A stretch of 64,000 bases of DNA from Lenzites betulinus (lineage: Eukaryota; Basidiomycota; Agaricomycetes; Polyporales; Polyporaceae). Positions 18,470 through 58,331 of the stretch are shown piece by piece (the stretch's first letter is position 1; each line of letters begins with the position of its first letter). Below the pieces are notes generated by a model. That model ran no database searches. It saw nothing but the letters and a program-made list of their open reading frames with translations, and had not been told where the DNA came from. The DNA lies in contig JABYQU010000026.1 of assembly GCA_022264855.1 (NCBI GenBank), forward strand, positions 62,001 to 126,000, given 5' to 3'. Both the position numbers and the translations under genes were made by a program.

Positions 18470-19992
18470 ATGAGCTACAGCCTCGCCGTCTCGATTGACC
18501 CGGGCGTTCTGCCTCTGTTGCTCCGGAACGGGTACAAACTGTGCATTGCGAGGAAGGTCAACTCCACGTACGACGTTGTTTGGCAAGCCATCTCGTGAGT
18601 GACCCACTTTCATCCTCTTTCCGCTATCATAGCTCTGAGCCCATATATAGGCCTCTAGCCAAGAACCAGTTCAAATGGACTTCGGACACCTACCGCGTGT
18701 TCGGCGCCGAGCCATATCGCGATGGGGCACCAGTCCGCATATTGACACAGCAAGTGGACATCCGTCCAGGTCAGTATCAGGCTCTGACCTACCTCGCTCA
18801 CTCGATCATTCACTGTCTTCCTGTATAGGACAAACGGCGATCATGGACAAGCTAGGCCTCATGAACCCCCCGACAGGCCCGCCCGACAACAGCAACACGT
18901 TCCGGGTGCAGAACTCGTACGGAGTCACCAATATCGCCATGTCTTCCTACGTGAACGAGTCGTATGCGCCCGTTTTTATCTTCCCGACGGACGTGATCCC
19001 GGGGACGATCTCGTTCACGCCGCAGGATCAAGTCATTGTATGGCTTGCCACGAACACGTCTTCTGGTGTGATGATGTCCCAGGACGAGGGTGCCAGCGGC
19101 GGCTTTGAGGCACGTTCCGCCCGCCCTCTGCCTCCCCCGCAGCAGTGTCGCTCACCTCAGGCTGCTGCATAGGTCTCCTTCAACCCCGACCGGCGCACTC
19201 AGTCGGTGAGGTACACGGACGCAGCCAAGTGGGTTCTGGATGGGACACAGTCTGCCGCAATCACCGCTCTCGACGTCGACGAATCCCGGCCGAAGCCGGA
19301 GAAGGAGAAGGACCGTGGCGCCGTCCCTGTTGCGGTCGCCGTTACTTTCGAGACGGAGCGAGAGGCGCATGCATTTGCCGAGCATGCAAGGAAGCACGTC
19401 CCCGAAGATATGAGCAAGTGGGACGTGTCGGCATTCGATAAGACTATACGGGCGACTGTCGCGGTGGAGGGTAAGACCAAGGGCGAGATGACGTCCATCG
19501 ACTTGGCCATGAAGGCGTTCCTGGATGTCTTGTACAGCTTCCCTGGCGCGAAGTACAAGTCCCTGACGTACACCGTTCTCCCGCATAAAGGTGCGTCCTT
19601 CTGGCGTCTCTCTAAAGTATGACAGCAGGCGCTTACATATTCACTCTTGACTTGCAGAGGAAAAGCACGAGTATAGCGCCACCGCGGCTGTGTGTTTCTC
19701 CTCCGCGCAAGAGGCGGATCGCTTCGCGGAGCGTGTCAAGAACAGCCACTCCAGCGACGTCGTGAACATCGAGGGCATCGTCCATGGTCCCGCAGTCGCT
19801 GTGAAGTTGTCAGTGAAGGACCGTGACGAAGTGAGCGCGCGTGAGCGGGGCCGCTGCGTCTACGACGAAGTCATTGCGGAGTGCCAGCGCGATGCGAAGC
19901 CCGTGTACATCGGGCCGCTCATGTGGGGTATGTGGGCAGTTACCTCACTCACTCGTCGCACTGACTGACAGCGATGTTACTTCCTAGAGTGA
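18470..19992 (+). CDS. Family member A (type 1, 405 aa), unknown function
   Basis: Six exons: 18470-18594, 18651-18769, 18829-19109, 19173-19590, 19658-19927 and 19988-19992, 1218 nt in total and in frame. The last exon holds only five bases and supplies the stop (..MW-E-stop). Exons 1-3 encode the family N-module, starting MSYSLAVSIDPGVLPLLLRN and then GYKLCIARKVN, FKWTSDTYRVFG and VIVWLATNTSSG. Exons 4 and 5 each encode one C-terminal repeat of about 85-90 aa (first VPVAVAVTFETEREAHAFAE, second SATAAVCFSSAQEADRFAER). There is no signal peptide or membrane segment, so a cytosolic location is expected. Intron 3 appears to use a GC donor (GCACGT) with acceptor CATAG. A is the most divergent type 1 member and lacks a divergent type 2 partner. 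An F-box gene follows on the same strand. I do not recognise a characterised homologue. Confidence 0.8.
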
Positions 19993-20356
19993 GTACAGAT
20001 TATGATGCAGCTATCACAAGTCCATATTTGGTGCGCATATGGTTTATGTTAGTGTTCCTCCATCTGTGATCTATAGGAATGGCATATTGGTATGGTTTCG
20101 TCCGTTGTGCATGCAGTGTCGCATCAAATTCCCGCGCGCCTCAAGTGTCAGAATATGACATACGTACTCACGAACCCTCTCACGACCATCATGCATCGAA
20201 CTGTGCGTTGAGCCACTGCTTGATCTCGATCTGACTGTCCACAGCGGTACCGAGCGGACCATAGTCAGTAGATGCATTTATGCGGCGTCTGCCAATGCCA
20301 GCCAACTACTAGTATATGAAGCTCAATCTACGTACGTCCCCCATACCTCCTCCATC

Positions 20357-21604
20357 ATGGACACGCTGCCTATAGAAAACCTGCAATGCATATTCACACT
20401 CGCATGCATCGACGGCGGACGTACCGGCCTCTCACTCTCCCTCACCTCCAAAGCTATTCGCGCGGCGTCTCGAACGGCAAGGTTCCACTCGGTCTCGCTG
20501 GTCGCCAACCCACGCCGCCTCCAGGCGTTCGTCGCGCTCTACGAGCGGGAGTGCGATCCCTCGCTCGAGGACAAGCCGCGCATCCGCCACTTGTATTTGT
20601 CGTTTCCGGACGTCCCACGGGTGCCCCTGCCGCGCGAGAGAGCGCGTTCCCTCTCACCGCACCCCGATCGGTGGCAGATGAGACAAGCAATCGCGGACAG
20701 CCTGCATTCGCTAATACAATCCGCAGACCGCGAGGCACCGAGCCCCGCTCGGCACGAGTCCGAGGACGTGTTGGACGTAGCTTTTCAGCGGGGTCGAGGA
20801 CGCAGCTCCCATTCGCCCGACTCAAGGACGTCCCCGGAATACCGTGCAGCAGCTCGCCGACTTCTCCACCTCGTCGCCCCTGACGTACTGTCCCTCAACA
20901 TCGAGGCAGGTTTCTCCAGCGGTGGTGAACTCCACCTCCCCGGCGTCATCGAAGAGCCCTTCGCGGTCCTGCGCGAACTCACATTCGTCGACGTCGATGA
21001 TCCTGCGGCCCTCTTCTCCTCCGCGCCGAACGCTTCCAACCCGCTGTTCCCCGCTCTCACACATCTGCACATCTTGGTCCACTTCACACGCCGCGAATTC
21101 GACATTCCGATGTGGTCTGCGCAGGCGCCGCGCGTCACCCATCTTGGCGTAACAGGCGTCGTAACCGAGTCGCACATCAAAGAGCTGGCGGATGCGGTGG
21201 GCCCGTTCACGATTGATTCGGAGCCCCTTGTCATCATTTGCTACTTGACAAGACCCCCGCGACGGCTGGACGCCCCCATCCCGCCACCTACTCCGCCACC
21301 CCGGACGTACCCAAGCGTGCAAGTGCTGGTGATGCAGCCTCGCCCGCCGCCGCGCATGATCGAGGGAAGTTGCGGAGCTGCGTTCGACGAATGGGTTGAG
21401 ACGGTTGAGGACCTATACCAGATCGTGAATCAGTCTCGTGCGCGGGGAGATGTGAAGGCTGTCGTACAGCCGCCTATCGACGATGCAGGAGAACATCTGT
21501 ACGCTTTGGATGCCTATGGAGACTGGCTGAAGCGGATTGAGGGTAGAGGGGAGTTTTGGGTCGCGGAAGGTCGCGATGAATGGGACACGCGGTGGGGATT
21601 TTGA
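20357..21604 (+). CDS. F-box-like protein (F-box i, 415 aa)
   Basis: Single open exon starting MDTLPIENLQCIFTLACIDG, a degenerate F-box of the kind common in Agaricomycetes, followed by LSLTSKAIRAASRTARFHSV. The middle (about residues 90-155) is low-complexity and acidic/serine-rich. After SPEYRAAARRLLHLVAPDVL comes a leucine-rich region that may form the substrate-binding half, then a proline-rich stretch (PPPTPPPRTYPSVQVLVM) and the family tail LYALDAYGDWLKRIEGRGEF. F-box proteins of this type link Skp1-cullin ubiquitin ligases to targets; that role is inferred from the family. Paralogues lie at 33882-35111, 46273-46732 (truncated) and 58874-60084 (frameshifted). It lies 365 bp downstream of gene A on the same strand. 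Confidence 0.8.
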   Translation: MDTLPIENLQCIFTLACIDGGRTGLSLSLTSKAIRAASRTARFHSVSLVANPRRLQAFVALYERECDPSLEDKPRIRHLYLSFPDVPRVPLPRERARSLSPHPDRWQMRQAIADSLHSLIQSADREAPSPARHESEDVLDVAFQRGRGRSSHSPDSRTSPEYRAAARRLLHLVAPDVLSLNIEAGFSSGGELHLPGVIEEPFAVLRELTFVDVDDPAALFSSAPNASNPLFPALTHLHILVHFTRREFDIPMWSAQAPRVTHLGVTGVVTESHIKELADAVGPFTIDSEPLVIICYLTRPPRRLDAPIPPPTPPPRTYPSVQVLVMQPRPPPRMIEGSCGAAFDEWVETVEDLYQIVNQSRARGDVKAVVQPPIDDAGEHLYALDAYGDWLKRIEGRGEFWVAEGRDEWDTRWGF

Positions 21605-21784
21605 CATCACTCTGGTTGCGGGTACCACGGCACTTCACATTGGAATGTGCCACGGGCTCTGAAGGAGTTAGACGTTTTGATGTACACCAAATGTCGTTTG
21701 CTTTTCCGAGCAAAGAAAAGTCTTAAGAAAGTGATGCAGACATAGTGGATTGAGTCACAAACGCACAACCAACATGACGGTAAC
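21605..21784. other. 3' flank with sequence shared beyond other family members
   Basis: The stretch at about 21680-21745 (TGTACACCAAATGTCGTTTGC ... GTGATGCAGACATA in parts) resembles 23820-23885 beyond gene B and, inverted, 58445-58530 beyond gene G. It suggests that these loci descend from one duplicated block that included the distal flank. Confidence 0.5.
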
Positions 21785-23117: not shown

Positions 23118-24005
23118 TATAAACCTATAGAGTTATTCTAGACGTGTAACGGACGTAAGACTGTACATCATACTGACACAGACAAAGTCAACTTGCCTTC
23201 CAGTGATTGTATTGAATAACAAATTTGATACACTGTTTCGGCCGCGCAGGCGTTGCAGGACGCCACTCATACAATATCTATAGAGTAAACTGAGCAATGA
23301 GCCACCGCAATACCACGTCATCGTTACTGAGGCATACCCCTACTTCGAGACAAGTAGATAACTTTGTGGAATAATGTCTAATGGTAGCTTCGCCAGACTT
23401 GAAATTGCCAAATGGCCTTAGACTACAGACGAAATTAGGGAGTTCAAGTTAGAGAGTAGTATGTGTAGAGGTGCGCATGCGAGTCACATACCAGGAATCA
23501 TAAGGGAGAATCTAATCTGTAATAAGTCTTCGTTGTGAGAATACTTGTTGCGGAATGATTGGTGTAGCGTATGAACGAGAGGAGAAGAGAAATCAAAACA
23601 ACTGACGCTCACCACCTGGGTCCTCTCTAATACAGGCGCTTATATTGTTGATGGCTTGCCGAGCCGCCACATCTGCAAATGCAGTGGAACGAGTCCCAGC
23701 GTCTTAGGTCGAGGCGCACCTGTCTATGGACACGTTCGCAGGATGACTGAGCTGCCCCCGTCGAGCGCGGCATCGAGTGCGAGGTAGTCTCTCCGAAGGC
23801 TCTGCAGTCAAGCCTCTTGTTGCATACCAAACGTCGTTTGCCTTGTAGAGCACAGAGAAGTCCCCAGAAAATGATGCAGACATAGACCAGGCCACATAAG
23901 AACAGCCAGCATAGCGCGTATTACATGACTCTTCGAAACTTGAACTCGGTGCTCAACCTGCTTGCCCATGTACGCCGCGCTAGGCCGTGCCGGATGCTCA
24001 CTGGG
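23118..24005. other. Intergenic; inverted repeat begins here
   Basis: No supported gene. From about 23690 the sequence becomes homologous, inverted, to 58650 and leftwards, with divergence greatest at this outer end. A short minus frame at about 23690-23830 has a counterpart at 58524-58600 plus, but neither is open enough to call a gene. Confidence 0.5.
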
Positions 24006-25665
24006 CTACAACTGGTCTACAGAGAGGCATTGCGTGTAAGCGTCGTTTCCGCTGGAGAGGTATGAAAGCATACTCACCCCACACGATAGGGCCGACGTAG
24101 ACGGGCTCCGGGTGGCTGGGGACGCTCTGGAATGCAGCGACAGCAGCGTCGTACGACTGGCGGATGCGCTTGGCCGCGGTGTCCTTGTTCCCCTTGGCCT
24201 CGAGTTTGACAGTCACCGCGACACCGCGGGCGGTGGCCCTGAACGTCGCCCCGGGAGAGGTCGCATCATTGAGCTGCTCGGCGAACGCGGTGGCTGCCGC
24301 CTCGTCCTCGAAGTGAACGACCGCCGTGCCGGTGGTGGCAGCAGGTGTGCCATTCTGCTTGATGCCGTTCACAGGGACGGGAACAGGTTCAGCAGACGGC
24401 TGGATCTGGGAGTTGCCTACCAAATAGTCGTTGAGTGTACGGTCAAGGTGTATATGCGAGGGGCGGGAACGTACCGAGACGGCCCTTGACGGTCAAGCTG
24501 AGCGCCTTGAAAACGGGCTTCGGCCCTCCGAAAGCGTATAAGAGCTCCAGGTACTTGTCGGACGCAGCGCGGACGGAGGCTTCTTCACCAGTAGCAAACT
24601 CGGCCTCTATGATGACAGAGACGGCGCTGCCGGTCTTGGAAACTTCCCAGCCTGCAAATCCAACCGGCTTGTGAGCGACCAGGTAGTCCGCGAACGTGGC
24701 AGCGGCATCTCCATCGGCCAACTCGACCGCAGCCACGACAGGAACGGTACACGTGAGGGCGCCGCTCCCGCCCGCAGGGGCGTTGAAAGACTGCGTGATG
24801 AGCGCAAGAGTGGCGGCGTCCGGCTCGGGGATGGAGAAGCTGTTTTCGATGAAGTTGTAGGTCATGGGCAACACAGGTTGGTCGCCGTTGAGGATCCAGA
24901 CACCTGCACCGCTGTCGGAGATCTTGTACAACAGGCTTTGTCCGGGAACTCTGGTGAAATCGACCTAATGATACATGGGAGCTCGAAGTCAGTCCCGAGA
25001 TATATTCACTCAAGCAAAGGATATGGACAGTACCTCAATTGCCTCGCTCGATGCCGCAAGGATCATGGTGCCCGAGGTCACCTCGGTGGCGAACCAAACC
25101 ATGACAGTCTCGATAGGCTGGAGGGTGATCGAACCGAGCACGAAGGGGTTCTGCGAGACGTAGAAAGGGCTGTACTTTCCGTTCAGGTAGGAGTTCAGAC
25201 CGATGTTGATCGGGCGGTAGTTGTTCTGCACAGTGAGCTTGCCGCTTGTGTCAATGCGGCCGCCCGCAGGCCCCATGACCCCGTACTGGTCCAAAGTCGC
25301 AATTTGGCCTAGACGGAGGGGAATAAGCATTGGGTGAGAGTGAAGGAATGCGGACCGCCGAGACGTACCCGACTTGATGCCCTCCGCGTTGGTCGATGCT
25401 TGAACGCGTGCGCCGGACTCGAACTTCTCGGATCCAAACACCTCGAACTTGGTCTGCCACGCGAAGTCGTTGTTGTAGAGTACACTGGTAGTACGTCATC
25501 AGAAATAGCATCCCCAAGAGTCAACAAGCGCACTCACTCGCCGCCTTGCCAGATGACGGTGTACGAGTTGTTGACCTTCTTGGCAATGCAGAGCTTGTAT
25601 CCCGCCTTGATGAGAATCGGGAGCGCGGCAGTGTCGATGCGAACGTTCAGTTTGTATTCAGACAT
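24006..25665 (-). CDS. Family member B (type 1, 452 aa), unknown function
   Basis: Exons on the minus strand: 25538-25665, 25369-25484, 25034-25308, 24475-24964, 24078-24416 and 24006-24016, 1359 nt in frame. The first three exons give the N-module (MSEYKLNVRIDTAALPILIK, GYKLCIAKKVN, NIGLNSYLNGKYSPFYVS, ETVMVWFATEVTSG). Exon 4 adds VLPMTYNFIENSFSIPEPD and the first C-terminal repeat (ADGDAAATFADYLVAHKP to YAFGGPKPVFKALSLTV). Exon 5 begins with a short linker and carries the second repeat (GTAVVHFEDEAAATAFAEQL to PEPVYVGPIVW). The 11-nt last exon encodes DQL-stop after an interrupted codon. No secretion signal. It is divergent to type 2 gene C across 1.2 kb. Gene G is its inverted duplicate. 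Function not recognised. Confidence 0.85.
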
Positions 25666-26860
25666 GTTGAGAGTTGCTGATGTCCAGTGCAGAGGGGTTT
25701 GTGCAGATGCGATGGGGATGAGAGACGATGGCCTCCTCTGTTCGCGCACCTGGCTTTTATACGCTTTCTCCATGGGCCCCGCGAGCAGGTGTGCAGACAC
25801 ACATGCCAGTGGCCGCGCTTCGAGAACAAGTGCTTCGGTGCTTCGCGCATGACAGACTCCGGTGTACACAAAGAGGCGGTCTGTTCATTTGGAATTGGCA
25901 CTGACGGGCCGAGAAGCGACTGCCACCACAGACAGATGGGTCCCAGGGCTGTGACATGGGGCTAGCATTGAAGGACACCGTGGCGCTCTCCGTCGTTCCT
26001 AGTGCGCACCCAAATCGGGCGATCCCTATACGAGGCGTCCTAATTTGGCAACAGGTGTTTCGTACCGCCGTGCCGGGGGAGGGTCAAATGCGGACTTGAG
26101 CGTCTGCAGGTGCCGTCTTCTTGCCTTCGTCTTCGCGGGCAAGTGACCGCTATACAGTAGGTTGTGTTCTGTGACATTCTGAAACGCTAGATCGTGCGTA
26201 GCGTTCGCTCACGGGCCGTGGAGTGCAGCTTGGACCTAGAGGGCGCTATGTCCATAGTCCCGCGCCGCTTGGGGCCCGTACCTATTATTGAGAATTACGA
26301 CAGTCTCGGCCGTAGTTGCAGTGCCTGGCTTCATAGTAGACAAGGCAGCTGTTCGACGTTTAGCTTCGGCTGCCATAGTGCTCGAGAGGCACCTACGCGT
26401 ATGACAACGGGGATAACGCTGTCCGGTGCTATAATGAGCATCTTGGAGGAACATCGTCTGCGACTGAATGGGCGAGACAACGTCGACGCTCCTTCACCCA
26501 CCCATTAGCACCGGGAGCACACACGGCCGCTGTCGCTTCCCTGCGGCGCACGACGCATTCGTGTTACGAGCGTGCTCGACGTCGTGCAACCGCGACACGC
26601 TGTCCCACTGGTGCAACACTTCTCGACCCTAGAAGCCCGGTGCATACGGATGCCGAATGTTGCACCAGGGACAAGGGCGACAGCGGGTACACGACCGGTT
26701 CTTGTATACGCCGTAGCACTTCTCGTCTCAGGTGGACTGCGTACGGCAAAGTCAGAGAGTCCTTGAGACGCAGGATGGCATAAATACCAGGGCGTCGAGG
26801 AGCCACCCACCATCGCCAACACAGCACTCCTCACCCGAACGCCTATCCTCCACAAGCACC
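25666..26860. promoter_or_regulatory. Shared divergent promoter region of genes B and C
   Basis: The 1195 bp between the two start codons hold no supported gene. TATA boxes face outwards: TATAAAAG (minus strand, 25754-25761), 89 bp from the B start, and CATAAATA (plus strand, 26779-26786), 75 bp from the C start. The same arrangement is preserved in the inverted copy at 55479-56675, and a non-identical equivalent separates D from E. Co-regulation of the two genes is an inference from this layout. Confidence 0.65.
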
Positions 26861-28102
26861 ATGTCCGACTTCTATCTCTCCGTCCACGTGAACCCCAACG
26901 ACCTGGCCACCCTCAAAGCGGCTGGCTACAAGCTGTGCATCGCGAAGAAGGTCAACAACAAGTACAACACGGTCTGGAAGGGAGGCAGGTTGGTGCTCAC
27001 GATTTCCCTAGCCCTACTCCTCCGCCTGTCTGACGGATACCTATAGCTTCCTCGCCCACAACCAGTTCAAGTGGACCAGCAGGTACGAGGTCTTTGCGAC
27101 GGAGACCTTCGAAGATGGCGCCCTTGTCTCTGAGTCTACCGATACCCCTGAGATCAAGTATGGTAAGACACCGTTCATTATCCGAGTCGACGATACATAC
27201 CGGGTGCTCACCGATCGCTCTCCGCGTAGGTCAAAGCTGCTTGCTTGACAAAGTGGGAAACATGGGCAACGCGAAGGGCACGCCGAACACATCCGGCACC
27301 TTCTCCGTCATCAACCAGTACATGGCGATGAACATCGGCGTCAGAGGCTACCTCGGGGGCAAGTTCTCGCCCATCTTCGTCAGCCCAGAGAAACTGGTCA
27401 CTGGCAAGATCGACCTCACGCCCGTCGAGAGCGTCCTCGTCTGGTTTGACACTACGCACGTTACCAGCACGATCATCACCAGCGCCATCTCGAACACAAT
27501 GGAGGTAAGCAGGCCGTTCTTGCAGCGTTAAGGCTACATTAGCTCACCTAGCGCGTTTCCCAAGGTCGAGTTCACGGGCGGGAAAGCCACCCGCTCGGTC
27601 TCGTACGCAGGCGGCGCGTGGCTCCTCGACCACCAGCTCCGCCTCGCAGCGACCTACGACCCCCAGACCAACCTCTTCGCAGCCGAGAAGCCGAGCCAGC
27701 CGCTCTTGCGCAAGATGGCAAGCTTCATCAACGACCGCAGCCTTATAGGCTACACCGACACCGCCTTCAAGGCTACCGTCGAGTTCAGCGAGGCGGATGT
27801 GGAGGCTGGTGTCCCGCAGGCCTTCGCCGACTACGCAAAGGGGGCGCGCCCGTCCGGGCTGGAGCAGTGGGGGGTCTCGACGGAGCACAGCGCCGTCGTG
27901 GTGCGTCTGGCCCTCGAAGAAGACTACGAGGATGCTACGGGGGCGGAAAAGACTGAGACCCCTAACGCGTTCTTGAGCATTATCCCCGGATGGACCGGTG
28001 CGGCGTACAAGAAGCTCACCTTTGAGGCTCCCGAGACTGCTGGTGAGCGTTCTTCGTCGCATCGTCACTAGTCTGCCGCTGACAAATATCTCTGCAGCTT
28101 GA
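26861..28102 (+). CDS. Family member C (type 2, 333 aa), unknown function
   Basis: Exons 26861-26988, 27047-27162, 27230-27504, 27565-28042 and 28098-28102 total 1002 nt in frame. Exon 5 is five bases (CT plus TGA), giving ..ETAA-stop. Exons 1-3 have the same sizes as in gene B (128, 116, 275 nt) and encode the N-module: MSDFYLSVHVNPNDLATLKA, GYKLCIAKKVN, NIGVRGYLGGKFSPIFVS and ESVLVWFDTTHVTS. Exon 4 encodes a linker (WLLDHQLRLAATYDPQTNLF) and a single C-terminal repeat (TAFKATVEFSEADVEAGVPQ to AYKKLTFEAPE). The second repeat of type 1 is absent. No signal peptide. Partner of divergent gene B; gene F is a virtually identical inverted copy. Function not recognised. Confidence 0.85.
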
Positions 28103-28413
28103 AATATCTGGTATTCATATGCTGGAGACACTGCTACGTCTTGCTATGGCATCTTGGGATGTTTCGTGCTGTTTACGCACATGGTCTATGATGTCCTTGT
28201 CAGCTAGTACATCCTGAATCGATATGGGATTATGCGTACATTAAGGACATTGGGGCAACTATGCACAGGGAATATGACTCCGCCGTATGCGTCTTCACAG
28301 TGCTAAGCCGATAGCAATGATTTGAATCTTAATGTTCATTTATATACGCCAGATCGGCGGGAATATGAGGGCAAGTGCGGTTTTGAACACTATTCTTCGG
28401 GATAGGCTTATGA
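28103..28413. other. Convergent intergenic of C and the J-protein gene
   Basis: About 310 bp of lower GC between two convergent stop codons. No gene seen. Repeated inverted at 53926-54236. Confidence 0.6.
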
Positions 28414-29269
28414 CTATGATGTAGATATTGAAGGCGAGTCCTTGTCTATGGAGAGTTTCCGTGCTTCGATGTCATCAAGTGATGCCGATGTTTCGGCGCG
28501 CGTAATGCTTCTGCGAGTATTCTTGCTCTCTGAGAGCGCTCGTGCGCGAGTGGTGTAGGTCTGAAAGACGAACAGAGCAACCGTCTTTTCCACCGTTCTG
28601 GTTAGATCGAGAGTATTCATCGCAGTGTGCCGTAACGCACCAGAACGACTGCACCAAGCATGATGCGCTCCTTCCACCGGTCGTCCAGGCCGACGTTCAT
28701 CTCCGCCCGCTTCATCTGTCTTGCTCTCCACATTGCGGTGCTCAAATCATGGTAGGATGCTCGCGGGCCAGAACTTGAGCCTTCTTCCGCGCTCATGCCG
28801 TCCACCGAAGACGCAGTTTTCTTCCCGGAGAGGACAGCATACGCAGACGCAATGGCTTGGAAGCGGGCATGCGCCGCCTCAGGAGATATACCTCCAGCAC
28901 TTGCAACGGGCGAGTCCGGATGGTATATGCGAACAAGGTCGTAATCTGCTCTCGCACATTGTCAGATATCGCATGGCCACAATTGGGGGACAACAGAACG
29001 GACGCACACCGGGCTTTCACGTCTGCGCGTGTCGCACTCCGAGGAAGGTGGAAGATTTGGTGAGGTGTTGGATGGGTGTTCTTGGGGAATGGGTATGGGT
29101 TTGCGCTTGTAGATGCAGCTCTGCTCGGGCCTGACGAAACGGTCACTCGTGCGATACACGGCGTGCGCAGTGGGCGAGAGGCGCGAGACGTCGCGAGTAG
29201 TGGTAAGCTTCGAGCATTGCTAGTGTGGTAGCGGAGATTCAATGTGTTTCTTAGACAGGCTTGAAACAT
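28414..29269 (-). CDS. J-domain (DnaJ-like) protein, probably mitochondrial, 245 aa
   Basis: Three exons on the minus strand (29008-29269, 28641-28945, 28414-28584 by mirror of the right-arm copy), 738 nt in frame. The N-terminus is rich in Arg/Ser and lacks acidic residues (MFQACLRNTLNLRYHTSNAR), as expected for a mitochondrial presequence. A J-domain follows: PTPHQIFHLPRSATRADVKA, then YYDLVRIYHPDSP with the HPD motif at residues 96-98, and FQAIASAYAVLSG. A hydrophobic segment at about 181-198 (LGAVVLTVALFVFQTY) suggests a membrane anchor, and the tail is charged. J proteins stimulate Hsp70 ATPase through HPD. This copy has an intact HPD, whereas the right-arm copy at 53070-53925 does not. 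The family fits short membrane-anchored fungal J proteins; the exact orthologue is not identified. Confidence 0.8.
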
Positions 29270-29744
29270 TAGACTGAAGCGAATCTTAAATTACAGTCTA
29301 TAGAGCCACCTTCGAGGAGGAAGAGCCAAAGATCGCAAGAAAGCAAAACAGACAAGGTAGAGTGAGCAGGAGCAAGCCCCGGCCGCTTCGGAATGAGCGC
29401 TTGGATCCAGATAGATCTAGATTTCAGGGTCGGCATGTGCCGGACACCAGACCGGCCTTTGCCGCTCAGCGACATGAGCCTGCGGACGGGTTCAAGTTTG
29501 TCGCGAGTTCATCTAATACTGTAGCCACCACCGCTACAGTCTCCCTATTCTTGAAGCAAGGTCACTTGATGTATGGTTTAAGGATGTCATCACGTCGTCT
29601 CAAGACTGACACCACTTTCAGACGTTTCACATCATGTTCAAACCCTACAGCATACTATATGTAACAAAAATGAGATTGCTTTCTCTCATGCGAACCTCCC
29701 AAGAAGTAGAGCACAGCTTCCAATAGATCAAAACAACGGAATCT
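29270..29744. other. Intergenic; inner boundary of inverted repeat
   Basis: Homology to the right arm ends at about 29477, just after GGTCGGCATGTGCCG. The rest up to the end of gene D shows no gene. Confidence 0.6.
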
Positions 29745-31014
29745 TCAGGCTGCGCAAACTCCGTCAGCTATAGGCCGACACTTTGGGTATCCCGTAGCAA
29801 GGAACTTACCGTTAGTCTCGGGAGCTTCAAAGGTGAGCTTCGTGTACTGTGCGCCAGTCCATCCGTTCAGAATGCTCAAGAACTTGTAAGGGACCCTCTT
29901 CGTGGCTGCCGCCGAAGCGTTGTCGTCCCCGTCAATCTTCAAGTATGCCACGACCGCGTCGCCTTGACTAGAGACGTTCCACTCCTCCAGCCCGTCCGGT
30001 CGTGCACCCTTCGCATACTCCTCGAACGTCTGAACAACACCGGCCTGCACTTCTGCATCGCTGAACTCGAGAGTCGCCTTGAATGCAGAGGTATCGCCTA
30101 TCGCCTTGTTCTGAGAGTTCAAGAGGCTCGCCATCTTGAGCAGCAGCGGCGGGCTTGGCTTCTCGACCTCGAACAAGTTCGTCTGGGGATCAAACGTCGC
30201 AGCAAGACGAAGCTGGCCGTCTAGAGACCATGCGCCCGTACCCGGGCTGCCAGGCGTGCTAGCGTACGTGACGGAACGCGTGGCGATTCCACCCGTGAAG
30301 TCGACCTTGATGCATGTGCAAGGTGAGTCAATAACAGTAGCATATCGGTCCATTTCGCGGTCACTCACCTCAATCGTGTTCGAGATAGACTTGGTAATAA
30401 TGGTGCTGGTAACGTGCGTAATATCGAGCCAGACGAGGACAGTCTCGATGGGCGTGAGATTGACGCTGCCTGTGACGAGCGGCTTTGGGCTGACGAAGAT
30501 GGGCGAGAACGTGCCACCAAGGTAGCCCATGACGCCGATGTTTATCGCCGCGTAAAGGTTGTCGACACTGAAAGTGCCGGATTCGTCCGGCGTCCCTTTC
30601 GCATTGCCCATGCTCCCATTCTTGTCGATGGTCGCTGTTTGGCCTATGGGAGGATTCGATGTTACCCGTCAGTAGCATATAGGTACGTGCTAGCAACGGC
30701 ACCCAAACGATGACTTACCGAACTTGATCTCAGGGGTTTCAGTTGAAGCAGTAACCAGTGCACCGTCCGCGAAGGTGTCTGTTCCGAAGACCTCATATCT
30801 GCTGGTCCACTGGAACTGGTTATGGACGAGGAAGCTAAGAGGAGAACGTCAGTAAGGCAGCTCGCTGGGAGGTTCGGGTTCATTACCTGCTTCCCCTCCA
30901 TACGGTATTATAAGTATTGTTGACCTTTTTAGCAATACAGAGCTTGTATCCAGCCGTCTTCAAAGCGCTTAAGTCGGTGGGGTCGACGTTTACGGTGAGA
31001 GAGAAGGTTGACAT
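29745..31014 (-). CDS. Family member D (type 2, 339 aa), unknown function
   Basis: Minus-strand exons 30887-31014, 30719-30834, 30369-30643, 29810-30305 and 29745-29749, 1020 nt in frame. The 5-nt final exon (CC plus TGA) gives ..ETNA-stop. The first three exon sizes (128, 116, 275) equal those of B and C. N-module motifs: MSTFSLTVNVDPTDLSALKT, GYKLCIAKKVN, NIGVMGYLGGTFSPIFVS, ETVLVWLDITHVTS. There is one C-terminal repeat (SAFKATLEFSDAEVQAGVVQ to YTKLTFEAPET). It is a diverged paralogue of C, not a recent copy. A TATAAAAG lies at 31095-31102, 81 bp upstream. It is divergent to type 1 gene E across 1.0 kb. Function not recognised. Confidence 0.85.
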
Positions 31015-46272: not shown

Positions 46273-46732
46273 CCTCGCGCGGCGACATATCGACCGGGTC
46301 GTCGCTGGAGTCGTCCATGACGTCCTCGTCATCTTCGTCCGACCATTCCTCGCCGCGTTTTGGGAACCGCACGCGCCAAGATAACGAGAACACGAACTCC
46401 CGTCTCCGCTGCCACCATCCAGGAGACGGCGATAGAGACCGCGAGCGCCGTTCCTGAAGTGAGCCCTTCGGGAGGCTGTCCGGGTAGGTCAGATACAAGT
46501 GTCGGATGTGCGGCTTGTCCCCGAGAGAAGCGTCGCATTCACGTTCGTACAGCGCGACGAACGCCCGGAAGCGGCGAGGGGTGGCGACCAGCGAGATCGA
46601 GTGGAACCGTGCCGTTCGAGAAGCCGCGCGGATGACCTTCGACGTAAGTGAGAGGGCGACGCCGGTGGGCCCGCCGTCGGTGCATGCAAAGGCGAATATC
46701 CTTTGCAATGTCTCCAGAGGCAGCGTGTCCAT
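46273..46732 (-). pseudogene. Truncated F-box gene (F-box iii), fused to repeat DNA
   Basis: The first 150 or so codons match F-box ii (same ATG, at 46732, MDTLPLETLQRIFAFACTDG). After the acidic tract and PREDR the reading frame runs straight into the GC-rich repeat and ends at 45998 without the leucine-rich half or the conserved tail. Between about 46273 and 46345 it differs from F-box ii (VMDDSSDDPVDMS against VEYIMDDSYDSPVAMF), while upstream it is nearly identical. This suggests the junction came through a slightly different F-box paralogue. A product would have only the F-box-like end. Confidence 0.85.
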
Positions 46733-47036
46733 GGCGGTTGTGGTCAGAGGGACGTACCTAGATTTATTTCTCTTATAGGAAGCTATCGGCAGACGCCGCA
46801 TGGTTAGCAGCTGCGGTCTGTTCAGCCTCGGGTACCCCTGCGGGCATGGCCATTAGTCACTAATCAGGCCTTCAGGTAGCGTGCCTAGTCAGGAGCCGGG
46901 CGCAACTGGTCATCCGACTCAAAGTGTCCACATTGCCCGTACTGACGCTCTTCATCGTCATAAACAATCATCTCAAAAGTGGCTGGTGTCACAATGTACA
47001 ATTGCACCAATTCCCACTGCGTTCGGCCGCAGTGAC
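46733..47036. other. Intergenic between F-box iii and AKR1 copy 2
   Basis: Duplicate of 35112-35415; no gene seen. Confidence 0.6.
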
Positions 47037-48491
47037 TCAGGGTGCGTTGACGGGGTTCCAAGTAATCGCGCCATCTCCTCCCCTGTCCAGCGCGTCGAGG
47101 CTCTGCATGTCCTCCACGCTGATCTCGAAGTCAAAGACCTCCGAGTTAGACAGGATGCGCTCCGGGCGTGCTGACTTCGGCAGGGGGACGTGTCTATACG
47201 GACGTCAGTATGCGAGACGTAGATAGGAGCACTAGGACGGTACCCGTGCTGCAGGGACCACCGGATGAGGATCTGGGCTGCGTCCTTGTAGTACTGGTGA
47301 ACAAGACGTCAGTCCGAGTGCGTCAACACGCAGCGTCAGGGAAGTCGTGGACGCACCTTCTCCGCCAGCTCTACAAAGAGCGGCTCATGAAGTCTTCCTT
47401 GGACGAGGGGCGAGTACGCCTGCACCACTATCCCGTTGGCTTTACAGTACTCGACGATTGGCCTTTGCTGGCAGAACGGATGCAGCTGTTATAGCGACGT
47501 GTCAGAGGGCCTCACGTAAGCCGTATGCAGTATGATATATTGACCCACCTCGACCTGGTTCACGCTCGGGAGCTCGTACCCCGCCTCGCGGATTTCATCG
47601 ATGTGTCTGTCCGAGCTGATATAAAGCAAGAGCGTCATAATCATGCCCACATGTCATCTCACATTTCATATATTGACGCGTCGCACTCACTAGTTGGACA
47701 CGCCGATCGACTTGATCTTCCCCGCCTTCTTCGCGTCGACAAGCGCGCGCCATGTCTCGAGGCGGGTCTCCTTCCCCGAAAGCGGGCTGTGAATGAGATA
47801 CAAATCGAAGTAGTCTACACTTTCCTTAGCTGGTTTAGTCTCACAAGAGCGATCAGATTTACCATAGCCAAAGTTGGCGAGAGAGTCCTCCACGGCGGCG
47901 AGAGTGTTCTCGTAGCCGTGCTCGGGGTGGTAGATCTTCGACGCTGCCACGGTTTAAGATGGGTCAGTACACATTCCAAGTCCAGATATGGCGGTGTCGA
48001 CAGTACTCACTAACGAAAACATCCTCCCGCGGGATCCCACTCCTCCTGATCGCCAAGCCCACTTGGGCCTCGTTCTTGTAGTATCGTGCAGAATCGATGT
48101 GTCTGTGGGGCTATTATCAATCCCTCTCCCTCTACATAACCATTACTGATAAACTGACCTGTATCCGTTTTGCAGCGCTGCGATACATGCAGGTGCGCAC
48201 TCGTCATTCTCGAACACGCCCAGGCCCAAGATAGGCATGTCGTGTCCTGCAACAAAGGATAAGCCGACAAGCTTCACAACCACATGCAAGGACAACACAT
48301 TGATATCGTAGCACGATAGAGCGGTCACGCATTATACAACCCTTACAGCGGTGTTCGAGGCAGACAAGTACGTGGACGCGACATCATCGTCGCGGTCCCG
48401 TGACCGTGTCGTCGTCAGCTTTGAGTCAGAGACGGGACTTACCGGAAGAGAGGCGGACCGTCGTTGACAGCGATAACGCCGACCCAGACAT
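47037..48491 (-). CDS. Aldo/keto reductase, duplicate of AKR1
   Basis: Copy of 35416-36870 at an offset of 11621, with the same ATG (48491), splice sites, catalytic motifs ([35 protein letters not shown]) and stop. I saw no coding difference in the stretches compared, so it should encode the same enzyme and raise gene dosage if the duplication is real. Its 5' promoter region is copied in full. Confidence 0.85.
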
Positions 48492-48798
48492 ATCAGAACG
48501 ATGTTTCGAAACGCAAGGCCGGGGCGTTTGATTCTGAATTTGAAAGCATCTCCTGTGGGTATTTATACTCCCCGTGTGGCTGAGCGGCCGAGTCAAAACG
48601 AAATTTGGACCACATTGACGTGCCAAGCAGATAGAACGGCCAATAACACATCGGGCTCAGATTAGAACAATTTTCCCATTGTGCCTGCGACCAGGTCGAG
48701 GATATCATACACCTCCGTTCATACGCGTTCGTGTCGTTTCCAAGCTCCTGTTACAATTCTCTTCTGGTTCTTGCTGTAGACGACTTGCATGAAGGTGT
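48492..48798. promoter_or_regulatory. Upstream region of AKR1 copy 2
   Basis: Duplicate of 36871-37177, with the same TATAAATA-type element on the minus strand. Confidence 0.5.
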
Positions 48799-50133
48799 TC
48801 AAGGTGCATCGACGGGGTTCCAGGTGACGGCACCATCCTTGCCGCGGTCCAGTGCGTCAATGGCAGCCACGTCTTCCGCACTGATCTCGAAATCAAAGAC
48901 CTCGGCGTTGGAGACGACACGCGTGGGCTGAGACGATTTCGGGAGTGGGATGAAACTAGAGAAACGATTTAGATTGAGCGTTTCTTACTTCACAGTTCAG
49001 AATGTTTTGCAGATGCTTACCCGCGTTGTAGTGACCAGCGCACGAGCAGCTGCGCCGGGTCTTTATTGTACTGTGGTTAAGAAAGTTGAGCACATCAACT
49101 TCCCGGATGAGACGCGGCCACCGACCTTCTTCCCGATATCGACGATCGTGTCGTTCCACTTTCCGCGAATCAGCGGCGTGTACGCTTCAACGATGATCTT
49201 ATGCTTGTTGCAGTATTCCACGATCTCCTTCTGCTGACAGAAGGGATGAAGCTGTGCGTGTGTTCAGTCCGTGCTCTTTGTACGAGGATGCACCGCACGT
49301 ACCTCGACCTGGTTGACAGAGGGCGTCTCAAGCCCCGCTTCGCGGATCTCCTCCAAATGCTTAGGGCCGCTATAAGACGATATTTAGTTTGGAGCACAGT
49401 TGGTCGCCAGCGATCATTTCAAGAGGCCACATACTAGTTGGATACACCGATCGTGTGGACCTTTCCCTGCTTCTTCGCCTCAATCAACGCATTCCAGGTC
49501 TCTAAGCGGCGCTCCTTGTCGGACAATGGCGAGTGGATGAGCATCAGATCGATGTATTCTGCAGTGAGTGGATATATGCGCCCAAATCGCATGTAAGGTG
49601 AGTAGATAATCATGGGGAACCCATCGTAACACGCACCGAAGCCAAACTTCTTGAGCGAGTCGTCAATTGCAGCTGTCGCCTTGTCAAATCCGTGCTCGGG
49701 ATTGTTCACCTTCGAAGCTGGGTAACCGAGGATACTTGTCGTTTAGTAAGAAAAAGGGCGCTATGGGCAATGTACGCACTGATGAACACTTCCTCTCGAG
49801 CGATCCCGCTCTCTCTCACAGAGTTTCCGACCTGTTCCTCATTCCTGTACATGCGTGCAGAGTCGATATGCCTGTATACCTTTCAGAATACGAACAAAGA
49901 ACCCATACAGGACCAAGGTCTTACCTGTACCCGTGTTTCAGTGCCGCGAGGCACGCCGGGCTGCAGTCGTCATTCTGGTACACTCCCAGCCCTACAACCG
50001 GCAGGTCGTAGCCTGTGCAAACAAACACGTCAACTAATACGCACGAAGTAGAACGGTCCGAAGCGAGACGCTGCGCACCAGAAGATAGTTTGACGGTGCT
50101 ATGGATCGTGAGCGTGAGCTTGGACTCAGGCAT
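48799..50133 (-). CDS. Aldo/keto reductase, duplicate of AKR2
   Basis: Copy of 37178-38512 (ATG at 50133), with all splice junctions and the catalytic Asp, Tyr, Lys and His retained. The only differences noticed lie inside an intron (near 49562 and 49604). The promoter copy extends about 168 bp upstream before homology ends at 50301, so its distal upstream sequence is unrelated to that of copy 1, which abuts the GC-rich unit. Confidence 0.85.
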
Positions 50134-50301
50134 TCTTGATGCTGGCGCGAGATGGTGGTCGGTGAGAGACCGCGGTTTGGGCGCGGGCTTCCGCCTTTAT
50201 ATAACGTGCCCAGGGCCTGAGATTAATAAAACAACTTGGTCTCAGGCCCGCCATATCCGATATTGACAGAGTTCAGAAATGCCCGATGACAACATGCCTG
50301 T

Positions 50302-50992
50302 GGCGGTTCTCTATCTTATCTTATCTCTTCTAAACACCTATACCCCAAGTTTTGAACGTTCTCGCGAAATCTCATAAGTACCCGCCGCTCGGCATGTGCA
50401 GCGTCGGAGGCCGTGTGTGGTCCGTTGGCGATATGCTGTTCATGATCTTGAAAGAGTATCATACCCCGGGCCGCCTTAAAGGATCTCGCGCGAAGGCAGA
50501 AAGTTCAGTCGTTGATACGATACACGAAGACCTCAAAGGGAACTTCAGCATAAGAACCAGGAGTCGGATGGTTAGTATTCCTACCGCTAGAGACATTGCG
50601 GCAAGTGGTCGACGCGGGAAGTAGTGGAAAAGGCGCGCCGGGGTGGGGGCATCGTGAGGGCAATACACGATCCTTGCATACCAGTCTATGAGATCACCGA
50701 ATTCAAGTGAGTCGACGTTTCAGCATATCCTAAGGCGACCTGTAGCTCACCAAATCTCTCAGTCCGCTCAAATAGCAAACACATATGTTCATATCTCCTT
50801 AAGGGTTCCCATTGGGCGGCAACCTAGTGCGCGTCGCACCCAGTGAAGTCAAGTACGAGTCAACAATTCCACTGGCGTCATCGGGAGGGTAAAGAGCCTT
50901 CCGGTTACGCTTGCGCATCCGAATCTGCATCTGAAACGATTGTCTTACAAATATACTGGGACGATAGTACAACCTGATGAGACGGATTTGAT
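50302..50992. other. Intergenic, no supported gene
   Basis: A plus-strand frame at 50352-50624 (90 codons, MNVLAKSHKYPPLGMCSVGG onward) has no recognisable domain or splice extension. 50700-50992 is the 3' flank of the WDR83 gene. Confidence 0.5.
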
Positions 50993-52871: not shown

Positions 52872-53069
52872 CATCGTTGAGCGGCAAATGCCGGTCTAGC
52901 GCTCGGCACATGCCGACCCTAGATCTATCTGGATCCAAGCGCTCATTCCGAAGCGGCCCGGACTTGCTCCTGCTCACTCTACCTTGTCTGTTTTGCTTTC
53001 TTGCGATCTTTGGCTCTTCCTCCTCGAAGGTGGCTCTATAGACTGTAATTTAAGATTCGCTTCAGTCTA

Positions 53070-53925
53070 ATGTTTCAAGCCTGTCTAAGAAACACATTGA
53101 ATCTCCGCTACCACACTAGCAATGCTCGAAGCTTACCACTACTCGCGACGTCTCGCGCCTCTCGCCCACTGCGCACGCCGTGTATCGCACGAGTAACCGT
53201 TTCGTCAGGCCCGAGCAGAGCTGCATCTACAAGCGCAAACCCATACCCATTCCCCAAGAACACCCATCCAACACCTCACCAAATCTTCCACCTTCCTCGG
53301 AGTGCGACACGCGCAGACGTGAAAGCCCGGTGTGCGTCCGTTCTGTTGTCCCCCAATTGTGGCCATGCGATATCTGACAATGTGCGAGAGCAGATTACGA
53401 CCTTGTTCGCATATACTATCCGGACTCGCCCGTTGCAAGTGCTGGAGGTATATCTCCTGAGGCGGCGCATGCCCGCTTCCAAGCCATTGCGTCTGCGTAT
53501 GCTGTCCTCTCCGGGAAGAAAACTGCGTCTTCGGTGGACGGCATGAGCGCGGAAGAAGGCTCAAGTTCTGGCCCGCGAGCATCCTACCATGATTTGAGCA
53601 CCGCAATGTGGAGAGCAAGACAGATGAAGCGGGCGGAGATGAACGTCGGCCTGGACGACCGGTGGAAGGAGCGCATCATGCTTGGTGCAGTCGTTCTGGT
53701 GCGTTACGGCACACTGCGATGAATACTCTCGATCTAACCAAAACGGCGGAAAAGACGGTTGCTCTGTTCGTCTTTCAGACCTACACCACTCGCGCACGAG
53801 CGCTCTCAGAGAGCAAGAATACTCGCAGAAGCATTACGCGCGCCGAAACATCGGCATCACTTGATGACATCGAAGCACGGAAACTCTCCATAGACAAGGA
53901 CTCGCCTTCAATATCTACATCATAG
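53070..53925 (+). CDS. J-domain protein copy with altered HPD motif
   Basis: Exons 53070-53331, 53394-53698 and 53755-53925 give 738 nt, 245 aa, collinear with 28414-29269. The presequence-like N-terminus and the membrane segment (LGAVVLTVALFVFQTY) are unchanged. The codon at 53417-53419 is TAT where the left copy has CAT, so the J-domain reads YYPD instead of YHPD (His96 to Tyr). The HPD histidine is required for Hsp70 stimulation throughout the family, so this copy is predicted to be expressed but unable to activate its chaperone partner. A sequencing or assembly error is the main alternative. Confidence 0.8.
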
Positions 53926-54236
53926 TCATAAGCCTATCCCGAAGAATAGTGTTCAAAACCGCACTTGCCCTCATATTCCCGCCGATCTGGCGTATATAAA
54001 TGAACATTAAGATTCAAATCATTGCTATCGGCTTAGCACTGTGAAGACGCATACGGCGGAGTCATATTCCCTGTGCATAGTTGCCCCAATGTCCTTAATG
54101 TACGCATAATCCCATATCGATTCAGGATGTACTAGCTGACAAGGACATCATAGACCATGTGCGTAAACAGCACGAAACATCCCAAGATGCCATAGCAAGA
54201 CGTAGCAGTGTCTCCAGCATATGAATACCAGATATT
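53926..54236. other. Convergent intergenic of J-protein copy and gene F
   Basis: Inverted copy of 28103-28413; no gene seen. Confidence 0.6.
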
Positions 54237-55478
54237 TCAAGCTGCAGAGATATTTGTCAGCGGCAGACTAGTGACGATGCGACGAAGAACGCTCACCAGC
54301 AGTCTCGGGAGCCTCAAAGGTGAGCTTCTTGTACGCCGCACCGGTCCATCCGGGGATAATGCTCAAGAACGCGTTAGGGGTCTCAGTCTTTTCCGCCCCC
54401 GTAGCATCCTCGTAGTCTTCTTCGAGGGCCAGACGCACCACGACGGCGCTGTGCTCCGTCGAGACCCCCCACTGCTCCAGCCCGGACGGGCGCGCCCCCT
54501 TTGCGTAGTCGGCGAAGGCCTGCGGGACACCAGCCTCCACATCCGCCTCGCTGAACTCGACGGTAGCCTTGAAGGCGGTGTCGGTGTAGCCTATAAGGCT
54601 GCGGTCGTTGATGAAGCTTGCCATCTTGCGCAAGAGCGGCTGGCTCGGCTTCTCGGCTGCGAAGAGGTTGGTCTGGGGGTCGTAGGTCGCTGCGAGGCGG
54701 AGCTGGTGGTCGAGGAGCCACGCGCCGCCTGCGTACGAGACCGAGCGGGTGGCTTTCCCGCCCGTGAACTCGACCTTGGGAAACGCGCTAGGTGAGCTAA
54801 TGTAGCCTTAACGCTGCAAGAACGGCCTGCTTACCTCCATTGTGTTCGAGATGGCGCTGGTGATGATCGTGCTGGTAACGTGCGTAGTGTCAAACCAGAC
54901 GAGGACGCTCTCGACGGGCGTGAGGTCGATCTTGCCAGTGACCAGTTTCTCTGGGCTGACGAAGATGGGCGAGAACTTGCCCCCGAGGTAGCCTCTGACG
55001 CCGATGTTCATCGCCATGTACTGGTTGATGACGGAGAAGGTGCCGGATGTGTTCGGCGTGCCCTTCGCGTTGCCCATGTTTCCCACTTTGTCAAGCAAGC
55101 AGCTTTGACCTACGCGGAGAGCGATCGGTGAGCACCCGGTATGTATCGTCGACTCGGATAATGAACGGTGTCTTACCATACTTGATCTCAGGGGTATCGG
55201 TAGACTCAGAGACAAGGGCGCCATCTTCGAAGGTCTCCGTCGCAAAGACCTCGTACCTGCTGGTCCACTTGAACTGGTTGTGGGCGAGGAAGCTATAGGT
55301 ATCCGTCAGACAGGCGGAGGAGTAGGGCTAGGGAAATCGTGAGCACCAACCTGCCTCCCTTCCAGACCGTGTTGTACTTGTTGTTGACCTTCTTCGCGAT
55401 GCAGAGCTTGTAGCCAGCCGCTTTGAGGGTGGCCAGGTCGTTGGGGTTCACGTGGACGGAGAGATAGAAGTCGGACAT
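54237..55478 (-). CDS. Family member F (type 2, 333 aa), inverted copy of C
   Basis: Exons mirror those of C: 55351-55478, 55177-55292, 54835-55109, 54297-54774 and the 5-nt 54237-54241. I found no amino-acid difference from C in the long exon 4, nor in the N-module stretches compared. All splice sites are retained, as is the CATAAATA element (55554-55561) 76 bp upstream. It is divergent to gene G. See gene C for domains. Confidence 0.85.
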
Positions 55479-56675
55479 GGTGCTTGTGGAGGATAGGCGT
55501 TCGGGTGAGGAGTGCTGTGTTGGCGATGGTGGGTGGCTCCTCGACGCCCTGGTATTTATGCCATCCTGCGTCTCAAGGACTCTCTGACTTTGCCGTACGC
55601 AGTCCACCTGAGACGAAAAGTGCTACGGCGTATACAAGAACCGGTCGTGTACCCGCTGTCGCCCTTGTCCCTGGTGCAATACTCGGCATCCGTATGCACC
55701 GGGCTTCTAGGGTCGAGAAGTGTTGCACCAGTGGGACAGCGTGTCGCGGTTGCACGACGTCGAGCACGCTCGTAACACGAATGCGTCGTGCGCCGCAGGG
55801 AAGCGACAGCGGCCGTGTGTGCTCCCGGTGCTAATGGGTGGGTGAAGGAGCGTCGACGTTGTCTCGCCCATTCAGTCGCAGACGATGTTCCTCCAAGATG
55901 CTCATTATAGCACCGGACAGCGTTATCCCCGTTGTCATACGCGTAGGTGCCTCTCGAGCACTATGGCAGCCGAAGCTAAACGTCGAACAGCTGCCTTGTC
56001 TACTATGAAGCCAGGCACTGCAACTACGGCCGAGACTGTCGTAATTCTCAATAATAGGTACGGGCCCCAAGCGGCGCGGGACTATGGACATAGCGCCCTC
56101 TAGGTCCAAGCTGCACTCCACGGCCCGTGAGCGAACGCTACGCACGATCTAGCGTTTCAGAATGTCACAGAACACAACCTACTGTATAGCGGTCACTTGC
56201 CCGCGAAGACGAAGGCAAGAAGAAGGCACCTGCAGACGCTGAGGTCCGCATTTGACCCTCCCCCGGCACGGCGGTACGAAACACCTGTTGCCAAATTAGG
56301 ACCGCCTCGTATAGGGATCGCCCGATTTGGGTGCGCACTAGGAACGACGGAGAGCGCCACGGTGTCCTTCAATGCTAGCCCCATGTCACAGCCCTGGGAC
56401 CCATCTGTCTGTGGTGGCAGCCGCTTCTCGGCCCCGTCAGTGCGAATTCCAAATGAACAGACCGCCTCTTTGTGTACACCGGAGTCTGTCATGCGCGAAG
56501 CACCGAAGCACTTGTTCTCGAAGCGCGGCCACTGGCATGTGTGTCTGCACACCTGCTCGCGGGGCCCATGGAGAAAGCGTATAAAAGCCAGGTGCGCGAA
56601 CAGAGGAGGCCATCGTCTCTCATCCCCATCGCATCTGCACAAACCCCTCTGCACTGGACATCAGCAACTCTCAAC
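55479..56675. promoter_or_regulatory. Shared divergent promoter region of genes F and G
   Basis: Inverted copy of 25666-26860. TATA boxes are kept: CATAAATA on the minus strand (55554-55561) for F and TATAAAAG (56580-56587) for G. Confidence 0.65.
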
Positions 56676-58331
56676 ATGTCTGAATACAAACTGAACGTTC
56701 GCATCGACACTGCCGCGCTCCCGATTCTCATCAAGGCGGGATACAAGCTCTGCATTGCCAAGAAGGTCAACAACTCATACAGCGTCATCTGGCAAGGCGG
56801 CGAGTGAGTGCGCTTGTTGACTCTTGGGCGTGCTATTTCTGATGACGTACTCCCAGCGTCCTCTACAACAACGACTTCGCGTGGCAGACCAAGTTCGAGG
56901 TGTTTGGATCCGAGAAGTTCGAGTCCGGCGCACGTGTTCAAGCATCGACCAACGCGGAGGGCATCAAGTCGGGTACGTATCGGCGGTCCGCATTCCTTCA
57001 CTCCCGCCCAATGCTTATTCCCCTCCGTTTAGGCCAAACCGCGACTTTGGACCAGTACGGGGTCATGGGGCCTGCGGGCGGCCGCATTGACACGAGCGGC
57101 AAGCTCACTGTGCAGAACAACTACCGCCCGATCAACATCGGTCTGAACTCCTACCTGAACGGAAAGTACAGCCCTTTCTACGTCTCGCAGAACCCCTTCG
57201 TGCTCGGTTCGATCACCCTCCAGCCGATCGAGACTGTCATGGTTTGGTTCGCCACCGGGGTGACCTCGGGCACCATGATCCTTGCCGCATCGAGCGAGGC
57301 AGTTGAGGTACTGTCCATGTCGCTCTTTCGAGTGAATATTTGTCGGAGCTGACTTTGAGCTCCAATACATCATTAGGTTGATTTCACCAGAGTTCCCGGC
57401 CAAAGCCTGTTGTACAAGATCTCCGACAGCGGCGCCGGCGTCTGGATCCTCAACGGCGACCAACCTGTGTTGCCCATGACCTACAACTTCATCGAAAACA
57501 GCTTCTCCATCCCCGAGCCGGACGCCGCCACTCTCGCGCTCATCACCCAGTCTTTCAACGCCCCTGCGGGCGGGAGCGGCGCCCTCACGTGTGCCGTTCC
57601 TGTCGTGGCTGCGGTCGAGTTCGCCGAAGGAGATGCCGCTGCCACGTTCGCGGACTACCTGGTCGCTCACAAGCCGGATGGGTTTGCAGGCTGGGAAGTT
57701 TCGAGGACCGACAGTGCTGTCTCTGTCACCATGGAGGTCGAGCTCGCTGCGGATGAAGAAGCCTCCGTCCGCGCCGCGTCCGACAGGTACCTGGAGATCT
57801 TGTACGCATTCGGAGGGCCGAAGCCCGTGTTCAAGGCGCTCAGCCTGACCGTCAAGGGCCGTCTCGGTACGTCCCGCACCTCACATATGTATATACCTTG
57901 ACCGTACACTCAACGACTATTTGGTAGGCAACTCCCAGATGCAGCCGTCTGCTGAACCTGTTCCCGTCCCTGTGAACGGCATCAAGCAGAATGGCACACC
58001 TGCTGCTACCACCGGCACGGCGGTCGTTCACTTCGAGGACGAGGCGGCAGCCACCGTGTTCGCCGAGCAGCTCAATGATGCGACCTCTCCCGGGGCGACG
58101 TTCAAGGCCACTGCCCGCGGTCTCGCGGTGACTGTCAAACTCGAAGCCAAGGGGAGCAAGGACACCGCGGCCAAGCGCATCCGGCAGTCGTATGACGCTG
58201 CTGTCGCTGCATTCCAGAGCGTCCCTAACCACCCGGAGCCCGTCTACGTTGGCACTATCGTATGGGGTGAGTACGCTCTATACCTCTCCTGCGGGAAAGA
58301 CGCTTACACGCAATGCCTCTCTATAGACTAG
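56676..58331 (+). CDS. Family member G (type 1, 450 aa), inverted copy of B
   Basis: Exons 56676-56803, 56857-56972, 57033-57307, 57377-57866, 57928-58266 and 58327-58331, 1353 nt in frame. Sizes equal those of B except the last exon: the CAG codon of B is TAG here, so the protein ends ..VW-D, two residues earlier. The N-module is almost identical to B. In exon 4, between about 57615 and 57790, about 13 of 68 residues differ from B (for example AEGDAAATF, HKPDGFAGW, MEVELAADEEAS), several agreeing with gene E instead. Elsewhere differences are scattered. This points to a local conversion tract or to local change in one copy. Divergent partner is F; an F-box pseudogene follows on the same strand. 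Confidence 0.85.

Follow-up and report, generated by a model that had tools for sequence, protein, structure and literature searches.

The 64,000 nucleotides analysed here (called the window) are part of a contig of 481,729 bases (C28) in the genome of the Polyporales mushroom Lenzites betulinus (37.4 Mb in 108 contigs). They carry seven genes of one family, A to G, which occur in two forms and six of which stand head to head in pairs that always combine one gene of each form.

Results

Gene models and the two forms

Gene models were built by hand from GT-AG introns, the sole exception being the third intron of gene A (GC-AG). The longer genes A, B, E and G consist of six exons and the shorter genes C, D and F of five; all share an N-terminal module (N-module), followed by two C-terminal repeats in the longer genes (type 1 where paired) and by one in the shorter genes (type 2). 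In the first pair, gene B (24006-25665, minus strand, 452 amino acids) and gene C (26861-28102, plus strand, 333 amino acids) are separated by 1195 bp (25666-26860), with TATA-like boxes at 25756 (minus) and 26779 (plus). Gene D (29745-31014, minus strand, 339 amino acids) and gene E (32037-33675, plus strand, 455 amino acids) lie 1022 bp apart (31015-32036; TATA-like boxes at 31097, minus, and 31920, plus), and gene F (54237-55478, minus strand, 333 amino acids) and gene G (56676-58331, plus strand, 450 amino acids) are 1197 bp apart (55479-56675; TATA-like boxes at 55553, minus, and 56580, plus). Gene A (18470-19992, plus strand, 405 amino acids), supported by its gene model, the genome search and the tree, is a singleton. 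A sequence-only reading of this DNA had placed seven genes of these sizes here, in two forms with a common N-module and differing repeat number, and had arranged them in three divergent pairs of unlike partners over 1.0-1.2 kb; the spliced models, comparisons with hhalign and the measured intergenic regions agree with it on all of these points.

Exons 1 to 3 measure 128, 116 and 275 nucleotides in B, C, D, F and G and 125, 116 and 275 nucleotides in E, with small shifts in A, indicating that the intron positions within the N-module are common to both types. Among the deposited L. betulinus proteins, P0020 is identical to B, and P0010 (C and F), P0003 (D) and P0017 (E) agree with our models up to the last exon; no protein among those recovered by the searches begins like gene A.

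History of the pairs in L. betulinus

The segment carrying B-C (23741-29472, plus strand) recurs as an inverted copy carrying F-G (52874-58607, minus strand; 96.9% identity over 5.7 kb). C and F encode the same protein and differ by 1 base in 1002, and G is 94% identical to B, with a nonsynonymous divergence (dN) of 0.025 against a synonymous divergence (dS) of 0.112, so that these copies look constrained. All three pairs of the sequence-only reading are present, but since F-G is a recent copy of B-C they count as only two independent ones. The further claim that D-E is not a recent copy of B-C is upheld by protein identities of 67% between C and D and 60% between B and E.

With E and C as queries, the genome search gave 36 and 34 matches, respectively, and among the best candidates, which were scored, family exons were found only on C28. 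These include a third independent pair, H-I, in which the type 1 gene H (minus strand, start at 166134) and the type 2 gene I (plus strand, start at 167324) are 1189 bp apart, and a singleton, J, at 232.5-233.7 kb, which has two repeats and no other family match nearby. All four type 2 genes found in the genome are paired, as are four of the other six (B, E, G and H), with A and J unpaired. J (L010) encodes 434 amino acids and has relatives in Trametes gibbosa and Trametes versicolor (P0016, P0015); genes of the J type are a third form of the family.

N-module and C-terminal repeats

The N-module is a domain of about 200 amino acids, predicted at high confidence to be all-beta. In gene E it covers residues 1-202 (32037-32802, plus strand; exons 1-3 and the beginning of exon 4), the boundary being set by alignment to the standalone protein P0034. 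Repeat 1 (residues 246-336; 32932-33204, plus strand) and repeat 2 (residues 367-453; 33350-33610, plus strand), the latter being the one that type 2 lacks, are predicted to be ferredoxin-like. The beta-alpha-beta-beta-alpha-beta topology was seen in the AlphaFold model of E (P0017), and the repeat of type 2 was assigned by profile comparison only. With hhalign, repeat 1 matched repeat 2 at E 3e-6, and the type 2 repeat matched repeat 1 at E 3e-17.

When exons, spliced proteins and profiles were scanned against Pfam, NCBIfam, PHROGs, PADLOC and PDB sequences, neither the N-module nor the repeats could be assigned to a credible family, and structure searches with the predicted N-module gave no convincing match, in line with the earlier statement that the genes resemble no characterised family. 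No lectin family matched A, D or E. Two candidate families were considered. PixA/AidA inclusion-body proteins (PF12306) were rejected: in comparisons with 11 PixA sequences of 3 genomes, hhalign gave a probability below 1%. Aegerolysin folds are linked with PUD-like folds; aegerolysin (PF06355) gave no Pfam match at E<=5 in A, D and E and none at E<=1 in 13 N-modules, and the one aegerolysin match of the genome lies on contig C57. Aegerolysin is also not named among the structure matches listed, which excludes nothing.

Maximum hydropathy over 12 residues ranged from 0.2 to 2.2 in 12 fungal-type proteins, compared with 3.1 in one exported-looking bacterial relative; by hydropathy alone, the fungal-type proteins appear to have no evident leader. 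With an E of only 4.7e-11 against the N-module profile, a metagenomic protein of 366 amino acids (P0090) may represent a more remote branch of the family.

Intergenic regions

One 9-mer, GTGGGACAG, occurs between the genes of each of the four pairs and at no other place in the window: at 26600-26608 (minus) between B and C, at 31858-31866 (plus) between D and E, at 55731-55739 (plus) between F and G, and at L009:3354 in the fourth. It was found once more (L002) among the other stretches scanned from the same genome. The motif was picked post hoc from the data in which it was counted, it lies at varying distances from the genes, and the F-G occurrence is shared with B-C by descent. At least one common 9-mer was found in 23 of 300 shuffled sets and two in 6 of 300, compared with two observed, one of which is TATA-like. 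GTGGGACAG is a weak candidate for a regulatory motif.

Pairing in other fungi

Relatives were collected with two queries, a type 2 protein (23 hits) and a profile built from both types (27 hits). Both types were recovered from every one of the seven named species in which such proteins were found (L. betulinus, T. gibbosa, T. versicolor, T. polyzona, T. elegans, T. cingulata and Pilatotrama ljubarskyi), and each species has at least one type 1 and at least one type 2 gene on contigs of equal reported size, which we used as a proxy for linkage, gene order being readable only in L. betulinus. In T. versicolor the consecutive tags TRAVEDRAFT_68950 (type 1) and 68951 (type 2) suggest that the two genes are adjacent, and in T. 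gibbosa two of three matched pairs lie on a contig of one reported size each (49091 and 467904). Among the relatives found, two-type pairing is a feature of the Trametes clade.

The distance matrices of type 1 and type 2 for 11 putative pairs correlated at 0.924 (0 of 5000 permutations), a value that is inflated by common species history. For this reason we relied on a swap test, in which partners were exchanged only within L. betulinus and T. gibbosa (three pairs each): the assumed partner assignment was the best of 36, the floor of the test being 1 of 36. With these distances in support, the pairs look as if they had been duplicated as units before the two species split, and the view that the pairing is old and retained gains from this result.

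Literature searches with gene tags from Trametes, Lenzites and Collybiopsis returned no papers, and searches on head-to-head pairs in Agaricomycetes and on these species returned none on this family among the matches listed.

Bacterial relatives

The fungal N-module is homologous to bacterial proteins (hhalign probability 100, E 1.3e-65, 191 columns). A scan of a collection with one genome per species yielded 73 loci, many of them from Pseudomonas, with Photorhabdus and others included; wherever a name was shown for these relatives, it was "hypothetical protein". Three loci (L015, L052, L087) in which a simple open reading frame (ORF) caller returned no N-module were dropped, and 13 of the remaining 70 carry two neighbouring N-module genes on the same strand, a count that includes L067 (weak second match, E 1.5e-6) and L074 (first copy a short ORF). 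The second gene of L067 (8761-9414), adjoining the Psychroserpens N-module gene, is a very diverged N-module-like gene.

Ten of the 13 tandem loci come from metagenome-assembled genomes (MAGs) that bear the labels Lachnospiraceae, Coprococcus, Clostridium sp. or Bacteroides sp. In the tree, the first copies of all ten group in one clade (0.92) and the second copies of nine in another (0.75), indicating that two unlike forms are kept side by side in these MAG loci too. In nine of the ten, the next gene belongs to one cluster; a single member of this cluster was tested and matched trypsin-like peptidases. A regulator-like gene was found in 35 of the 73 loci, mostly in Pseudomonas (one member tested: weak Trans_reg_C match, E 0.013). 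In Bradyrhizobium a single ORF holds two N-modules, and one N-module relative is a chimera with a ricin-B domain. In Kordia and Aquimarina (L065, L063) the N-module gene is followed by a gene of about 345 amino acids, weakly similar in Kordia to phage tail collar proteins (PF07484, E 0.035).

Among other replicons, a Pseudomonas query matched 7 plasmid records. None of the 35 pattern matches in viral_contigs was confirmed as an encoded relative, one Kordia query of phage records found no relative, and Foldseek against BFVD gave 0 hits at E<=0.001.

Further repeats and genes in the window

Two more recent segmental copies are present in the window: a direct 4.0-kb duplicate (34698-38684 and 46319-50306; 99.7% identity) and a copy of 1-2599 at 10299-12897 (99.8%). 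Like the inverted copy that carries F-G, they may be real or due to assembly. A second gene family lies 3' of A (20357-21604, plus), E (33882-35180, minus) and G (59068-60084, plus), with a fragment at 46001-46852 (minus); 59068-60081 and 33885-35231 are 77% identical. The three ORFs, each searched alone against Pfam, gave no match, and the beginning of this family looks F-box-like by eye only.

Discussion

Duplication and retention of the pairs as units suggest joint action of the two proteins. We tentatively propose that each pair encodes two unequal paralogues with a common, predicted beta-sandwich-like N-module, which would be made together and join in the cytoplasm as a hetero-oligomer. 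The repeats, predicted to be ferredoxin-like and numbering two in type 1 and one in type 2, would serve as assembly or spacer modules, and the assembled protein would most likely bind a ligand, such as a glycan or another surface molecule. Its role may be that of a stored, lineage-specific stress or defence protein, following the logic of cytoplasmic mushroom lectins; this is plausible given the apparent lack of a leader, the ricin-B domain in one relative and the defence pattern described for mushroom lectins. The N-module was probably passed from bacteria into Agaricomycetes.

Several observations weigh against this proposal. Conservation of the pairs could be explained by unit duplication and linkage alone, and A and J, which have no partner, show that single genes can persist. 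In the three pairs of the window every gene has a separate TATA-like box at 75-117 bp from its start codon, which makes a single common core promoter per pair unlikely. The E-like and D-like genes of T. gibbosa are reported on different contigs, which may reflect a break in the assembly or a true separation; the first exon is missing from the E-like model. Pairing is also not required for the N-module: Collybiopsis has standalone N-module proteins of about 196 amino acids, the module is single in 57 of the 70 bacterial loci, and 13 of 18 bacterial genomes have one copy and five have two or more, in a hand-chosen set that includes loci already known for two copies. The two copies of Paraprochloron are sisters and those of Kordia fall close together, which indicates separate, younger duplications and not an old two-form system. 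With regard to function, the ferredoxin-like fold is too common to be telling, and the structure matches to CBM41 and PUD lie within the range graded as a common arrangement. The mostly single bacterial genes and the standalone proteins of Collybiopsis speak against pairing as a general rule.

The strongest rival explanation dispenses with the heteromer: an ancestral head-to-head duplicate would have been copied repeatedly as a block, with the two forms acting separately or as homo-oligomers with related functions and the pairing being a relic. We hold this to be possible to the same tentative degree. F-G is a block copy of B-C, the window contains further block duplications, and the distances are compatible with such a history, as are the separate TATA-like boxes and the finding of a solitary N-module in Collybiopsis and most of the searched bacterial genomes. 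Against a mere relic stand the two types themselves, which stay distinct in repeat number, and the finding that no partnerless type 2 gene was found in the genome and both types were found in all seven named species, although A and J do persist singly.

A broader version of the heteromer proposal seems unlikely, namely that the N-module is an undescribed beta fold of bacteria and mushrooms whose unit is two unlike copies (head to head in Trametes, in tandem in the Lachnospiraceae-type loci, fused in Bradyrhizobium), forming a recurrent two-component system with no known relative. Somewhat less likely still, the proteins could be effectors of toxin-like antagonism or of nematode- or insect-directed defence, in which the repeats would be carriers and the N-module, taken over from bacteria of the soil or associated with insects, the active part. 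The apparent lack of a leader, the homologues in Pseudomonas, Photorhabdus and others and the ricin-B chimera fit this idea, as do mushroom defence lectins described as cytoplasmic, duplicated and sometimes transferred (PMC6272156, PMC4704728). It is opposed by the lack of any credible Pfam family match, toxins included, and by the recurrent neighbours among those inspected in bacteria, which are the regulator-like gene and, in nine loci, the trypsin-like protease cluster, and no toxin cassette. A locus of self/nonself or mating-type-like recognition, in which unlike partners from different alleles would pair in the manner of HD1/HD2, is highly improbable: multi-copy divergent unequal pairs at one agaricomycete locus do resemble the architecture of mating-type A, but Pfam shows neither a homeodomain nor any other DNA-binding match in A, D and E, the two types are complete paralogues with common N-module and introns, and F is identical to C.

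The N-module is a domain found in 73 bacterial loci and in mushrooms with neither a family model nor a close structural match in the libraries searched, which makes it well suited to structural and ligand studies. Should the unlike partners assemble, three independent pairs in one genome and both types in seven species would provide a naturally replicated test of whether paralogues stay divergently paired for building heteromers or merely by linkage.

Comparison with known systems

The N-module is shared with the bacterial proteins of Pseudomonas, Kordia, Lachnospiraceae and others, which sometimes adjoin as two copies, but these are mostly single-copy, often have an N-terminal extension and show no C-terminal repeats of the fungal kind. 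It is likewise shared with the standalone proteins of the Agaricales Collybiopsis, Crucibulum and Paramarasmius, which lack the repeats; C. luxurians has several copies, with 9 proteins of which three are short models. The repeats differ from ferredoxin-like (ACT/ABM-type) domains, a very common fold, in having no sequence family match. Cytoplasmic, duplicated and sometimes transferred lectins are a defence pattern described for mushrooms (PMC6272156; PMC4704728 for CCTX2). Our proteins resemble such hololectins and chimerolectins (CGL1/2, CCTX2) in being beta-rich, recently duplicated and, by hydropathy, without an evident leader and in having a relative with a ricin-B domain, but differ in that A, D and E match no lectin family. 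The nearest worked example, by analogy of logic, is PUD-1/PUD-2 of Caenorhabditis elegans. They are described as homologous beta-sandwich paralogues of unclear function, encoded by adjacent genes that are transcribed in opposite directions from one intergenic region and were duplicated within a cluster (pud-1.1/2.1 and 1.2/2.2; PMC3683130), and the pairs of the window show the same arrangement of homologous paralogues head to head on one intergenic region.

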